This document shows positions 20,103-39,565 of a stretch of DNA of 64,000 bases, one piece after another. The stretch lies in NCBI GenBank assembly GCA_945861665.1, contig CAMAVS010000003.1, positions 62,001-126,000 of the forward strand, read 5' to 3'. The notes beneath the pieces are model-generated. The model had not been told where the DNA came from. It saw nothing but the letters and a program-made list of their open reading frames with translations, and searched no databases. Source of the DNA: Chitinophaga pinensis (GTDB taxonomy: Bacteria; Bacteroidota; Bacteroidia; UBA4408). Position numbers and translations under genes: made by a program. Numbering within the stretch: the stretch's first letter is position 1; every line of letters starts with the position of its first letter.

Positions 20103-20443
20103 TTTAATTTTGTGTTAAAATTCACCTACTCTTTTAAGGCTTTTCGGTTTTCGCCAATTTTGTTTATGTTAAATGTTAACAAATATATAATTTTTTAACG
20201 ATTAAATTAAGTTCTAATATTTATTTAATCTTCTTCTTAAGCATTATAGGTAGTGCCCAAAGTGCCATTAGAAATTTATTTTATTAAAATTGAAGCGTAT
20301 AATGATTCACATATTGCTAAATTGGTTGTAATTAAATAGTTCAATCTAATAATTTTATCTTTCGCAATCGTCCCAAAAGTCCATTTTTACCTTCACATCT
20401 TGCAAATTTTTAGCTACATTTGTGGTCTCAAAAATAGCATGTT
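20103..20443. other. Intergenic region between divergent lipoprotein and ffh genes
   Basis: 341 bases, very AT-rich. It holds the ffh promoter motif at its right end. Apart from a short palindromic stretch (TGTTAAATGTTAACA, about 20166-20180) I see no gene, RNA structure or repeat in it. Confidence 0.6.
20415..20422 (+). promoter_or_regulatory. -7 promoter element (TAcaTTTG) for ffh
   Basis: Exact TAnnTTTG match. Predicted transcript start near 20427 gives a 17-base leader to the ATG at 20444. Confidence 0.5.
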
Positions 20444-32469: not shown

Positions 32470-33249
32470 ATGATTAAAGTTATATTAAAGTTAGCTTGTT
32501 GTTTAGTATTCATTTATGGAAATGGTTTTTCTCAAATATTTGACGAGCAAATATCATCACCGAAGTTTAAAGAGCAAATTCGTTTAAACAATATAAAGTT
32601 TGTTATTGGTTGGTCCTATAATATTTCGGATAGTTTATTGAATTTAAAAGGAGTGAAATATTCCTTTGAACGTTTCGATAAATTCGGAAATAGGGTAGAG
32701 GAGGCGTTGTACTCGCATCCCGAATATTCTGATTACGAATGTACTTATGATTATAATGAAAGAGGTTTGGAATCGAAAAGCATTGCTTATAAAACACGAA
32801 CGGATAAAACGGTGTATAAAAAATGGTTTTACAAATACGATGAGAAGGCTAACCAGGTTGAGAAAACGCCCCCAAAGAGTTATAAAAACAACGAGAAGTG
32901 GATTTATAAATTCGATGCAAAAGGCAATAAAATAGAAGAGGTGAGTTATGATGTAGATGGAAATTTAAACTATGTAATCAATATTACTTACGATTATAAT
33001 AGCAATCCATTGGATAAAATATTGTTGGACGCTTATGGAAATCAGTTGGAGGAATGGGTTTATAAGTATGACGAATCGGGGTATAATTTATATGCAATGC
33101 AATATAATGCCGATAATGTATTGTTAAAAAAATACAGTTATAAGTATAATTTCAGAACAGATAAAGTGGAAGAGGTAATTGAGGACGGTAATGGCAGAAG
33201 ACTTCTTTATATAAAATACCTTTATCAGTATTACAAAGATGGGCAGTAA
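32470..33249 (+). CDS. Exported protein with YD-like repeats, function unknown
   Basis: 259 residues beginning with a signal peptide (MIKVILKLACCLVFIYGNGFSQ). The mature part is built of short repeats of the type (Y/F)-x-Y-(D/N)-x-x-G-N-x-(V/L)-(E)-(E)-x, for example FERFDKFGNRVEEAL, WIYKFDAKGNKIEEVS and WVYKYDESGYNLYAM. This resembles the YD/RHS repeat but without the core toxin or closing motifs of Rhs proteins, so a small beta-spiral periplasmic or surface protein is likely. No sorting domain is seen. It is monocistronic, behind a promoter motif and before a shared terminator. Confidence 0.75.
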   Translation: MIKVILKLACCLVFIYGNGFSQIFDEQISSPKFKEQIRLNNIKFVIGWSYNISDSLLNLKGVKYSFERFDKFGNRVEEALYSHPEYSDYECTYDYNERGLESKSIAYKTRTDKTVYKKWFYKYDEKANQVEKTPPKSYKNNEKWIYKFDAKGNKIEEVSYDVDGNLNYVINITYDYNSNPLDKILLDAYGNQLEEWVYKYDESGYNLYAMQYNADNVLLKKYSYKYNFRTDKVEEVIEDGNGRRLLYIKYLYQYYKDGQ

Positions 33250-33297
33250 AAATGGCGCGAAGGCGAGGTTTACACTCGCCTCTCTCGCCATTTTTAA
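33248..33297. terminator. Bidirectional terminator between convergent genes
   Basis: A long interrupted stem: AAATGGCG-x-GA-x-GGCGA pairs with TCGCC-xx-TC-x-CGCCATTT. T runs stand on both strands, so it can end the YD-like gene from the left and the B12-regulated gene from the right. Confidence 0.85.
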
Positions 33298-33312: not shown

Positions 33313-34611
33313 TTACTCTTTTTTTATCTTAACTACTTTATTTATTTCTGAGTTTTGAATTTTCATAATATAAGTCCCTATAGCAAAGTTTGAAATATCA
33401 ATGCTGTGATTTCTCTCTGAAGCATTCAATTCAAATACAGCTACATTTCTTCCCATTAAATCTGTAATGCCTACTGTGAAAGTTCCTTTCATTGTTGCTG
33501 ATAAAGAAAGTGTAAGCTTATCAGATGCAGGATTAGGGTAAACACTAACACTTACATTTTCTTTTGAATCCTGAACAGAAGATAGATTTACATAATCCAA
33601 GGCAATATTCCCTGGAGAAACTCCTGCCGAAAATGAATCTACCAACATACCGTTTGCTTGGTAAATAAATACCTTTCCGTAGCTTACATAATCAGTATTA
33701 CCTGCATAGATGTTACTTCCCAAGTTATCATAAGCCATTCCATAAAGACTCTTGTTAATCGTTAAAGTATCGTAAGTAACTAGGGTGGCAGTATTAAATT
33801 TAGCCAATTGGTTATCACCGGCAACCTGATACAATATATCTGTTGAAGCAAGTACAGATGTTCCGCAACCACCCGGAGTAGCCAAAGCAGTAGTACTTAA
33901 CACACCAGTAAGTACATTGTATTTACTGATGGAAGCTGTTGAATAATCTTGGTTGTTCAAGGTGAAAATTTCATCACTTGAAATGGTCATATAATCAGGG
34001 TTGGTACCATTTAACCCTAAATTAATCTCCCTAACATAGGTATGTGCATTCAAATTAACAACACCAATGATGCTTTTATAATTCGGAAAATCAAATGCAT
34101 TGTTAACGGCAATGTATGCGCTGTCGCCATGCACAACAATTCCTTCACAGGCATATTGAGGACCGGCTTGAGTGGTTAACTCATATTGATATGAAAAATC
34201 ATTTTTATCAAATACCTGAAAATTGTTGGTGAATACATAACCGTATTCTCCTCTGGTAACCAACAAATGGTTATTCCAGATAGCGAGTTTACGTACTCCA
34301 AAAACAGGCAATACACCCTCTCGTACAAAAGTGTTTTTATTGTACTTAATAATTTTGTCATCGGCAGCCACATACAAATAATCTCCATCAATGATAACAT
34401 CGGTTGCAAAGCGCGAACCTACAATGTTCTCAATAGTAGTGTAGTGCTTGTTAACAGGGTTGTAGGTGCCAATTGAAACAGGTACGTCAATGTTGCCGGT
34501 CATATAATCATAATGACCTTCGTTTACAACAATAACTTGTTTCAGCACATTTTGTGCAAAGGCATTAATAGTTACTACTAATGATGCCAAGAGAAATAAT
34601 TTTTTTTTCAT
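33313..34611 (-). CDS. T9SS-secreted YncE/BtuG-like beta-propeller under a cobalamin riboswitch
   Basis: A 432-residue exported protein. After a signal peptide (MKKKLFLLASLVVTINAFAQ) comes a repeat region with the patterns of seven-bladed YncE/BtuG-like propellers: VVNEGHYDYMTGNIDVPVS at the start, ATDVIIDGDYLYVAADD, KLAIWNNHLLVTRG, EGIVVHGDSAYIAVNN, NPDYMTISSDEIFTLNN and GMAYDNLGSNIYAGN. The last 80 or so residues (VYPNPASDKLTLSLS to NSEINKVVKIKKE) form a T9SS type A sorting domain. BtuG proteins of Bacteroides are surface lipoproteins that bind B12 with very high affinity; here a T9SS domain would provide the surface location instead. The cobalamin riboswitch on the leader supports a corrin-related role. 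Binding itself is inference. Confidence 0.8.
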   Translation of the reverse strand: MKKKLFLLASLVVTINAFAQNVLKQVIVVNEGHYDYMTGNIDVPVSIGTYNPVNKHYTTIENIVGSRFATDVIIDGDYLYVAADDKIIKYNKNTFVREGVLPVFGVRKLAIWNNHLLVTRGEYGYVFTNNFQVFDKNDFSYQYELTTQAGPQYACEGIVVHGDSAYIAVNNAFDFPNYKSIIGVVNLNAHTYVREINLGLNGTNPDYMTISSDEIFTLNNQDYSTASISKYNVLTGVLSTTALATPGGCGTSVLASTDILYQVAGDNQLAKFNTATLVTYDTLTINKSLYGMAYDNLGSNIYAGNTDYVSYGKVFIYQANGMLVDSFSAGVSPGNIALDYVNLSSVQDSKENVSVSVYPNPASDKLTLSLSATMKGTFTVGITDLMGRNVAVFELNASERNHSIDISNFAIGTYIMKIQNSEINKVVKIKKE

Positions 34612-34726
34612 TTTTTTAATTGGTTTTAAATAATGCTCTCAAATAATGTATTCCCTAATGAAAAATGGAGTAATGGAGAGCAACCATCAACTCACATCCT
34701 TTCCTCCGAAGGGTTGAATATATCGA

Positions 34727-34880
34727 TAATGGCAGGTCTCCTGACTTGTTCCGTTGCAATGCCTTCCCGTTATTAACAGTGGCTTATGTATTGCAATTGT
34801 TGAAGGAACTTACAGTATCGGGGAATGTCGGGGATTTGCACCCTGTTCCCTTTTAATCATTTAAATTAAATGAACCATTA
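34727..34880 (-). ncRNA. Cobalamin (B12) riboswitch
   Basis: On the minus strand the leader holds the class-defining blocks in order: GGGAACAGGGTGCAAATCCC, then ACTGTAAG, then GCCACTG, then GGGAAGG, then the B12-box AAGTCAGGAGACCTGCC. The ends TAATGG and CCATTA pair to close P1. A minus-strand promoter motif lies 8 bases above P1, so the predicted transcript starts just before the aptamer. About 110 bases separate the aptamer from the ATG of the propeller gene; a stretch with GCTCTC and GAGAGC in that interval could form the expression platform. High B12 would be expected to turn the gene off. Confidence 0.92.
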
Positions 34881-34887
34881 CTGAGAG

Positions 34888-34895
34888 CAAATATA
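34888..34895 (-). promoter_or_regulatory. -7 promoter element (TAtaTTTG) for the riboswitch transcript
   Basis: Minus-strand exact TAnnTTTG match. Predicted transcript start near 34883, three bases before the first P1 base. Confidence 0.6.
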
Positions 34896-35916: not shown

Positions 35917-36921
35917 ATGAGATTTACAGCATCCGAAAAACAAGAGATCATTCACATTGTGGATCGTTCAAAAATTGGTGTGAATAAAACGCTAAAAGAA
36001 ATCGGTTTGAATAAAAGCACTTTTTACAATTGGTATAAAGCTTATTCGGACTTTGGCATTGATGGTTTAGCGCCCAATCAGCGTTGTTCTAACAGACAGT
36101 GGAACACTATACCGCAAGAACAAAAAAACTTGGTTATAGAGCTTGCATTAGAGTTTCCACATTTATCATCAAGAGAACTTGCATTTAAATTAACTGATGA
36201 ACAACAAATTTTTATTTCAGAATCAAGCGTGTATAGAATTTTGAAAGCAAGAGGTTTGATAACAGCTCCTGCACATATTTTTCTTTCAGCAGCAGATGAA
36301 TTTAGTAAGAAAACTAGTTTTGTTAATGAAATGTGGCAAACTGATTTTACTTATTTTAAAATTGTTGGTTGGGGTTGGTATTATTTAAGCACCGTTTTAG
36401 ATGATTACAGCCGATATATTGTTCATTGGGAGCTGTGTGCTGGGATGAAGGTTGAAGATGTAAAAAGAACTGTTGATAGAGCGATTGTAAAAGCAAAAAT
36501 TGTAACCAAACAGCGCCCAAAATTATTATCAGATAACGGCTCATGTTATATTGCTTCTGAACTAAAAAATTATTTGAAAGATAATTATGATATGGATCAA
36601 GTACATGGAAGACCTTTCCATCCTCAAACACAGGGCAAAATTGAACGATATCATAGAACAATGAAAAATGTTGTGAAGCTCGATAATTATTACTGTCCGG
36701 AAGAGTTAGAATGTGCTTTAGAGAAATTTGTTAATACTTACAACAATGAAAGATATCATGAATCATTGCAAAATTTAACTCCTGCTGATGTAAATTGTGG
36801 TCGTGGTGAATTGATTTTAAAGGAAAGAGAACGAATAAAACAAAATTGTATTAGGAGCAGAAAAATGGAATACGAAAAATTAAAATTGAAAAACAAAAAA
36901 AATAACTTAGCTTTGAATTAA
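35917..36921 (+). CDS. IS3-family transposase OrfB (DDE integrase domain)
   Basis: 334 residues. The N-terminal HTH-like part (TLKEIGLNKSTFYNWYKAY) is followed by the integrase core with all three catalytic acids: Asp in MWQTDFTYFKI, Asp in LLSDNGSCYIAS and Glu in QGKIERYHRTMKN, with the usual NTYNNERYHESLQNLTP after it. The frame extends upstream without stop to the slippery A run in orfA, as expected for an OrfAB fusion made by -1 frameshifting, although it also has its own ATG. Intact itself, but the element lacks a full orfA. Confidence 0.92.
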   Translation: MRFTASEKQEIIHIVDRSKIGVNKTLKEIGLNKSTFYNWYKAYSDFGIDGLAPNQRCSNRQWNTIPQEQKNLVIELALEFPHLSSRELAFKLTDEQQIFISESSVYRILKARGLITAPAHIFLSAADEFSKKTSFVNEMWQTDFTYFKIVGWGWYYLSTVLDDYSRYIVHWELCAGMKVEDVKRTVDRAIVKAKIVTKQRPKLLSDNGSCYIASELKNYLKDNYDMDQVHGRPFHPQTQGKIERYHRTMKNVVKLDNYYCPEELECALEKFVNTYNNERYHESLQNLTPADVNCGRGELILKERERIKQNCIRSRKMEYEKLKLKNKKNNLALN

Positions 36922-37633: not shown

Positions 37634-39565
37634 ATGAAAACTAAATGTTTCACAATTATTGTTATGTTGATACTTGTAACTAGTTCTCCCATATTTTCTC
37701 AGCAGGTTAATTTTGATTGGGCTAGACAAATTGGAAGTTTAGGCTACGATGAGAGCTATTCAATAGCTTTAGATGATTCAGGAAATGTGTATACGACAGG
37801 TAATTTTCAAGGCAATGTTGATTTTGACCCTGGAGTAGGAGTTTATAACCTAATTGCTGTTGGAAATCAGAATGTTTATATTTCTAAATTGGATTCTGCA
37901 GGTAATTTTATATGGGTAAAGCAAATGGGAGCTGTGAATTCTTACTCGATAGTGTTGGATAGGCAGAGAAATATTTATATCACAGGAATCTTTCAGGGAA
38001 CAGCTGATTTTAATCCTGGGGCTGGCACTTACAACCTTACTTCCAACGCATTTCAAGATATTTTTATTTCAAAATTAAATTCTTTTGGGAATTTTGTTTG
38101 GGCAAAACAAATCAGCGGAACTACGAGTAATACTTCTTCGGCATTAACTGTTGATACTTTTGGAAATGTATATTCTACAGGAATGCTCCAAGGTACAGCA
38201 GATTTTGACACTGGAGCTGGCACTTACAATCTCATTTCGGCAGGCAGTTCAGATATATATATATTAAAATTAGATAGCTCAGGTAATTTTATGTGGGCAA
38301 AACAAATTGGAGGTGCCCTACAAGATTATGGTAAAAAAGTAGCTTTAGATACTTTAGGCAATCTATATATTACAGGAAGCTTTGAAGGTGTAGTGGATTT
38401 TGACCCGGGAGCAGGTATTTATAGCTTTACGGCAGGACAAGTAGATGTTTTTATAACCAAATTAGATGCCTCGGGTAATTTTGTTTGGGCCAAACAAATT
38501 GGGGGTGCATCCTTAGATTATTGTAACGATATTATAGTTGCTCCTTCCGGAAATGTATATTGTACAGGCCAATTTAATGGCACTGCTGATTTTGACCCAG
38601 GATTTGGGGCATTCAATCTGTCAGGAATTTCAGATATTTTTATATTGAAACTAAATGTTGCTGGAAATTTTATTTGGGCAAAACAAATGCCAGGTTCTGG
38701 GGGGGGGACCGATGATGTTGCTGCTTCAATTGATATAGACAGTAATGAAAATGTGTACACTACTGGTAGGTTTAATTCACTAACAGTAGATTTCGACCCT
38801 GGAGTCGGAACTTATAATTTTACGAATACTGGAATTCCTGGTACTGGCACCTATGATATTTTCATATCAAAACTAGATTCAATGGGTGATTTTAGATGGG
38901 CAAAACAAATTGGAGGTGGAAAGGAAGGAGGAGGGTTTGATTGGTCTAATTCAATAGCATTAGATAATCTTTGCAATGTATATATTACTGGATATTTTTC
39001 GGATACTTCTGATTTTGATCCAAGTGTTGGAATGTATAATCTTTATTCAGCTGGTTTTAGTGATATTTTTATACATAAAATGAATGTTTGTCAAATTGAT
39101 ACTTCAATACAACAAAATGGACTTGTGCTTTCTTCAAATACCAATGGAGCAGCTTATCAGTGGATTGATTGTGCTAATGGCAATATGCCAATAGCAGGAG
39201 CAACAAATAAAAATTATACAGTACTTGTTAATGGTAATTACGCAGTAATTGTTACGATGGGTAATTGTATTGATACATCCGGCTGTCGCAATATAACAAA
39301 TGTGGGGATTGATTCTGTTTTATCATTAAAAACAATTAGTGTGTTCCCTAATCCAACAAATGGAGAGATGAAGGTTGATTTAAATTATAAAATAAGCAAT
39401 GCTAGATTTCGGCTAGTTAATTTAATGGGCCAAACAATATTCGAAAAAGCGAATATCTCAGGAAGCCACTTTTTATTTGACATTTCAGAGCAGGCAAACG
39501 GTATATATTTTTTAGAAATAAACGAAATTGAAAATATCTTTAGAATGAAATTAGTTAAGCATTAA
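37634..39565 (+). CDS. SBBP-repeat beta-propeller protein with T9SS type A sorting domain
   Basis: 643 residues. A signal peptide (CFTIIVMLILVTSSPIFSQ) is followed by seven tandem repeats of about 65-70 residues, each built on ALDDSGNVYTTGNFQG, a (V/A/S)DF(D/N)PG(V/A)G block and KLDSAGNFIWVKQ. This is the SBBP (seven-bladed beta-propeller) repeat. After residue about 495 comes an Ig-like region (SSNTNGAAYQWIDCANGN) and a T9SS type A sorting domain (VFPNPTNGEMKVDLN to NIFRMKLVKH). The protein should be exported and attached to or released from the surface; the ligand is unknown. Monocistronic. Confidence 0.92.
   Translation: MKTKCFTIIVMLILVTSSPIFSQQVNFDWARQIGSLGYDESYSIALDDSGNVYTTGNFQGNVDFDPGVGVYNLIAVGNQNVYISKLDSAGNFIWVKQMGAVNSYSIVLDRQRNIYITGIFQGTADFNPGAGTYNLTSNAFQDIFISKLNSFGNFVWAKQISGTTSNTSSALTVDTFGNVYSTGMLQGTADFDTGAGTYNLISAGSSDIYILKLDSSGNFMWAKQIGGALQDYGKKVALDTLGNLYITGSFEGVVDFDPGAGIYSFTAGQVDVFITKLDASGNFVWAKQIGGASLDYCNDIIVAPSGNVYCTGQFNGTADFDPGFGAFNLSGISDIFILKLNVAGNFIWAKQMPGSGGGTDDVAASIDIDSNENVYTTGRFNSLTVDFDPGVGTYNFTNTGIPGTGTYDIFISKLDSMGDFRWAKQIGGGKEGGGFDWSNSIALDNLCNVYITGYFSDTSDFDPSVGMYNLYSAGFSDIFIHKMNVCQIDTSIQQNGLVLSSNTNGAAYQWIDCANGNMPIAGATNKNYTVLVNGNYAVIVTMGNCIDTSGCRNITNVGIDSVLSLKTISVFPNPTNGEMKVDLNYKISNARFRLVNLMGQTIFEKANISGSHFLFDISEQANGIYFLEINEIENIFRMKLVKH

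Follow-up and report, generated by a model that had tools for sequence, protein, structure and literature searches.

A cobalamin riboswitch ahead of a BtuG-like propeller gene with a predicted T9SS export tail in Bacteroidota

The minus strand at positions 33313–34895 of the window, the whole 64,000-nucleotide stretch of DNA that was analysed, raises the question of what a T9SS-tailed propeller protein might be doing as the only product of a gene preceded by a cobalamin riboswitch. Read 5′ to 3′, this segment comprises a TAnnTTTG box, the riboswitch and a single gene for a 432-residue protein, with a strong hairpin beyond the gene:

34888–34895 (−): promoter −7 box TATATTTG, of the Bacteroidota TAnnTTTG type, abutting the P1 stem of the aptamer (sequence and homologous loci)
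34714–34894 (−): complete cobalamin riboswitch aptamer, RF00174 (cmscan)
34612–34713 (−): presumed expression platform and leader, ending at the start codon (strand folding and sequence reading)
33313–34611 (−): propeller-protein gene, 432 aa, ATG start (ORF, family matches, model and fold search)
34552–34611 (−): N-terminal signal peptide (MKKKLFLLASLVVTINAFAQ), about aa 1–20 (sequence, model helix 2–16 and family-wide lipobox absence)
33583–34554 (−): β-propeller domain, aa 20–343 (AF2 model, Foldseek and HMMER family profile)
33325–33543 (−): T9SS type A C-terminal sorting domain, aa 357–429 (PF18962 and TIGR04183)
33247–33296 (−): terminator-like hairpin, a GC stem within an A/T-flanked stem (folding versus shuffles)

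The neighbours of the unit are an S41 peptidase, an rnpA-like ORF (by sequence reading), two ORFs with no Pfam match and a transposase-type gene; no recognisable B12 gene is found among these neighbours in the window, and neither a TonB receptor nor btuB adjoins the propeller gene there. An IS-type transposase/integrase gene with an rve domain occupies positions 35917–36921, approximately 1 kb beyond the riboswitch, and at 37634–39565, near the unit, a further T9SS-tailed protein is encoded, one that has SBBP propeller-type repeats but no riboswitch. Elsewhere in the window, a DUF805b RNA motif (RF02914) is located at 20123–20157 (−), with 43.9 bits against a gathering threshold of 35.6.

An earlier note on this DNA had described the promoter motif, a complete B12 riboswitch and the one gene as a unit, and this description is borne out. 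The cmscan run that the note had proposed as a check returns a complete aptamer, matching RF00174 over the full model (positions 1–189) with 118.5 bits versus a gathering threshold of 31.5 (E = 4.3e-29). The copy ahead of the propeller gene is the sole cobalamin riboswitch of the 2.49-Mb genome in a whole-genome RF00174 search. Across the whole window, TAnnTTTG occurs at chance frequency (115 found versus 110 expected). Near the 5′ edge of the aptamer in homologous loci, the box is present in 17 of 25 within a 44-position stretch, for which 0.026 per locus would be expected, and in 15 of those 17 it lies no more than three bases from the start of the aptamer model. Folding and sequence reading of the leader reveal a GAGAGCA element for which two copies of UGCUCUC are alternative partners, and these competing pairings may constitute the switching mechanism. 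On the other side of the gene, between convergent genes, an 85-nt stretch folds into a hairpin at −28.5 kcal/mol (z = −4.9 versus shuffles) that a simple terminator scan does not pick up.

The encoded protein has the composition previously ascribed to it: a signal peptide, a propeller and a T9SS sorting domain. The signal peptide lacks a lipobox cysteine. Lipobox matches are seen in two of 47 homologs, where they look like chance, versus 16 of the 16 operon-encoded BtuGs. At the C terminus, PF18962 matches aa 357–429 with 54.4 bits (cut-off 27; E = 1.5e-14), and TIGR04183, a T9SS tail model, also scores above its cut-off. The T9SS translocon protein SprA (TIGR04189, 2615 bits) is encoded in the same genome, and the sorting domain together with SprA would make the 432-residue protein a T9SS type A cargo.

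Pfam detects no family up to its cut-off over aa 20–343. The AF2 model, built from 36 homologs, shows an all-strand propeller here (model pLDDT 90.7), and most 10-residue blocks of this domain exceed 90. The comparison of a predicted structure with BtuG, also suggested in the note, was made by fold search; known BtuGs include BT1954/BtuG2, BT2095 and BACUNI_02894, with PDB entries 8bmy, 8bai, 8okv and 3dsm (PMC6143338, PMC10404256). In a Foldseek search of the PDB, the 11 best fold matches are all BtuG (E = 9.9e-16 to 4.2e-14; TM by target 0.74–0.81), several of them solved with cobalamin bound, and the first and next non-BtuG structures follow at E = 1.6e-13 and 4.4e-11. Sequence identity in the structural alignment is only 14%. 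A single-sequence PDB search yields weak BtuG matches only (E = 0.03), and the family profile is needed: the HMMER family profile matches BtuG chains at E = 1.6e-11 to 1.8e-8 over profile positions 27–333, the whole propeller, and when the propeller family is compared profile to profile with operon BtuG lipoproteins, 291 columns align (E = 9e-22). Because a propeller-only profile (A2) also matched designed propellers, through repeat likeness, the weight rests on the fold search and the HMMER family profile. In both the profile and the fold comparison, no known structure comes closer than BtuG. Of the outcomes that the note had named as refuting its reading, a missing cobalamin covariance hit and a fold other than a propeller have thus both failed to appear.

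Similar to BtuG, the window protein has a propeller fold, an upstream cobalamin riboswitch and several ligand-site positions, and its distant relatives adjoin btuB. The two differ in how they are built and placed. BtuG covers BtuB as a lid that is lipidated at its N terminus, and its operon relatives belong to DUF5074; the window protein lacks a lipobox, ends in a T9SS tail and is not encoded beside btuB, although 11 distant relatives are. The Pfam family DUF5074 (PF16819) has no match in the window protein and a weak one in only one of 36 homologs. In a tree of 36 T9SS propellers and 21 lipoprotein BtuGs, the two sets are split by one branch with 100/100 support, and the window propeller falls outside the BtuG lipoprotein clade; the Bacteroides BtuGs lie outside the sample of this tree. 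The window protein is not BtuG proper, by its absent lipid anchor, the lack of a DUF5074 match and its separate clade. It is nevertheless a relative of BtuG, and its mode of action is probably similar.

Ligand-site residues named for BtuG2 include Asn54, Trp194, Tyr316, Tyr335, Trp272 and Tyr239 (PMC10404256). They were mapped through the HMMER alignment, with the 8bai chain position plus 46 giving the UniProt number, an offset checked on the Asn54–Thr64 loop, Trp194, Tyr316 and Tyr335. Asn54 corresponds to the Asn of an NEG loop (Asn in 32 of 36 homologs), Tyr316 to window Tyr290 (Tyr in 27 of 36) and Tyr335 to window Tyr308 (aromatic in 36 of 36). Trp194 falls on window Phe175, aromatic in 28 of 29, where the alignment is least secure, and Trp272 and Tyr239 are not placeable in the HMMER alignment. 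The alignment is weak, and the conserved residues at these positions are suggestive only, hinting at corrinoid binding. A propeller could instead belong to the B12 response without binding a corrinoid, as a structural or adhesive surface protein or as a binder of the transporter or of a B12-carrying protein; the versatility of propellers and the low identity of 14% would allow this, but BtuG is nearest both by profile and by fold, residues at its ligand-site positions are conserved, and we regard a non-binding role as improbable.

The note had also proposed looking in other Bacteroidota for the combination of riboswitch, propeller and sorting domain, and the combination proves to be conserved in many genomes. 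Because the homolog search was queried with the propeller without its tail, the tail and the riboswitch are independent observations. Of 395 class members, 77 gave propeller matches, and in about 34 of these the match is strong (E < 1e-45). Those relatives for which a named record exists are Bacteroidota that are either uncultured or assembled from metagenomes. All of the 36 aligned homologs bear the PF18962 tail. Of the 29 best-matching loci in other genomes, one is cut at a contig end; RF00174 lies just upstream of the gene in 26 of the 28 testable loci, and the RF00174 search finds no riboswitch in the other two. Three strong homologs, at L020, L046 and L078, have no detectable riboswitch, which weighs against the capture reading. 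The lone gene in the window and the transposase-type gene roughly 1 kb beyond the riboswitch would fit a chance placement, in which an unrelated T9SS propeller had come to lie behind a riboswitch formerly serving another gene. This explanation was dropped as highly improbable because riboswitch and T9SS propeller occur together again and again: in 26 of 28 testable loci, and also in gene rows that hold btuB. In closer relatives, the propeller gene is often followed downstream by a gene for a small DUF6580 protein (cluster c3; L048 10497–11024 and other loci) that appears membrane-like by sequence and has no PDB sequence match; it is a candidate B12-related membrane component.

The close relatives of the window unit have no adjacent btuB. 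In 11 more distant loci, the T9SS propeller gene shares one gene row with a btuB-type receptor behind a cobalamin riboswitch, and nine of these rows also hold a lipoprotein btuG (DUF5074). The absence of an adjacent TonB receptor, one of the points of the note, is accordingly true of the window and fails in the deeper branch of the family. The B12 reading of the propeller is strengthened because these deeper-branch members sit with btuB and lipoprotein BtuG. The same rows also offer an argument for the non-binding role, in that a binder is already available there in the form of a distinct lipoprotein BtuG. Two further proteins are encoded in these rows. One (cluster c7; L082 10362–11339 and eight other loci) is a T9SS-tailed protein of about 325 aa, next to the propeller or btuB in B12 operons, with no Pfam match besides the tail, a well-conserved core and a structure model of pLDDT 50.5. 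The other (cluster c8; L079 10223–11716 and six other loci), of about 495 aa and probably secreted, has an FGE-sulfatase domain, and its gene directly follows the T9SS propeller gene in B12 gene rows.

A search of the window genome with TIGR01779 and an operon-BtuB profile, together with an inspection of the genes around 14 Plug proteins, turned up no dedicated btuB. The two profiles return generic receptor matches only, and none of the 14 Plug proteins was recognised beside B12 genes when their neighbourhoods were compared with the operon genes of relatives. A lipoprotein btuG was not found in this genome either, and a BtuF-like Peripla_BP_2 protein is present as a single copy away from the unit. 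In seven genomes of the window's own family, the propeller is absent at the search threshold. Six of the seven have a btuB-type gene, a DUF4465 gene or both behind riboswitches, where the stretch is long enough, and in several btuB is accompanied by a lipoprotein btuG behind the riboswitch. A T9SS-tailed DUF4465 gene lies under its own cobalamin riboswitch in several of these genomes, mostly alone:

L178 7410–8417, L179 7907–8857, L180 957–1976, L181 7872–8978, L182 949–1956: T9SS-tailed DUF4465 genes
L176 3336–4286: T9SS-tailed DUF4465 gene beside btuB/btuG

The window genome would thus fill with the propeller the riboswitch slot that its sister genomes fill with DUF4465 or btuB. DUF4465 proteins (BtuJ) are proven to bind B12 (PMC13398666), so the counterpart under a cobalamin riboswitch in the sister genomes further argues against the non-binding role. 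The family's riboswitch operons also contain a 99-aa ORF between btuB and btuG (L174 7193–7492, L175 2395–2694, L177 2765–3064, L172 2856–3155).

Taken together, the gene of this unit is likely to be repressed by B12 and to encode a BtuG-like protein that captures corrinoids outside the cell after export by the T9SS, where we infer the ligand, the direction of regulation, the localisation and the hand-over. When cobalamin is scarce, the riboswitch would be unliganded and the propeller gene expressed. The signal peptide would take the protein across the inner membrane, where it would adopt its BtuG-like fold, and the T9SS would recognise the C-terminal sorting domain and move the protein through the outer membrane, to end on the cell surface or be released nearby. 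There, the propeller would act like BtuG in binding corrinoids, whether cobalamin or others, and hand them over to a TonB-dependent transporter in the outer membrane. For the distant branch, the BtuB encoded in the same operon presumably plays this part, the lipoprotein BtuG could serve as its lid, and the T9SS propeller would be an extra, more outward capture protein.

T9SS cargo may stay anchored or be released, and in studied species a type A sorting domain often results in surface anchoring. As a sub-variant of the capture reading, the propeller might be a released, diffusible corrinoid scavenger (haemophore-like) or vesicle cargo and not cell-anchored. The release known for T9SS cargo, the absent lipid anchor and the lack of an adjacent btuB in the window or close relatives speak for such a form; the frequent surface anchoring by type A domains speaks against it, and we consider it doubtful. 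With either placement, the T9SS propeller probably captures B12, at the surface or as a secreted protein, and is widespread in Bacteroidota.

Among described B12 proteins, the window protein resembles DUF4465 (BtuJ; PMC13398666) in lying under its own cobalamin riboswitch, and the sister-genome DUF4465 proteins have the same kind of export tail. The two differ in domain and Pfam family, DUF4465 not being a propeller of the window type, and T9SS is not mentioned in the DUF4465 paper (PMC13398666). BtuH (PMC8941943) is likewise an accessory B12 binder in Bacteroidota B12 loci, and BtuG1 fuses a propeller with a BtuH domain; unlike the window protein, BtuH is a different domain, and no T9SS sorting domain is mentioned in PMC8941943. 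No open-access literature was found that joins T9SS with BtuG or with a cobalamin riboswitch in this sense, and no description of a BtuG-like propeller with such predicted T9SS export was found there.

B12 is a contested nutrient, and the Bacteroidota capture proteins in the publications consulted are lipoproteins from Bacteroides of the gut, of which BtuG is tied to BtuB. A conserved family using the T9SS route, every named member of which is here a metagenome-assembled genome or an uncultured Bacteroidota bacterium, would extend B12 capture to other lineages, and T9SS-exported B12 capture would add a nutrient-uptake role to the T9SS. Tentatively, the Bacteroidota may possess a T9SS-based branch of B12 acquisition that does not depend on a dedicated BtuB lid. 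Binders of at least two families (the BtuG-like propeller and DUF4465) would be exported in it, each controlled by a cobalamin riboswitch of its own, and they may be released as extracellular scavengers of corrinoids that cells share or steal. The propeller family would provide a defined gene set for comparing cell-bound with shared corrinoid scavenging.
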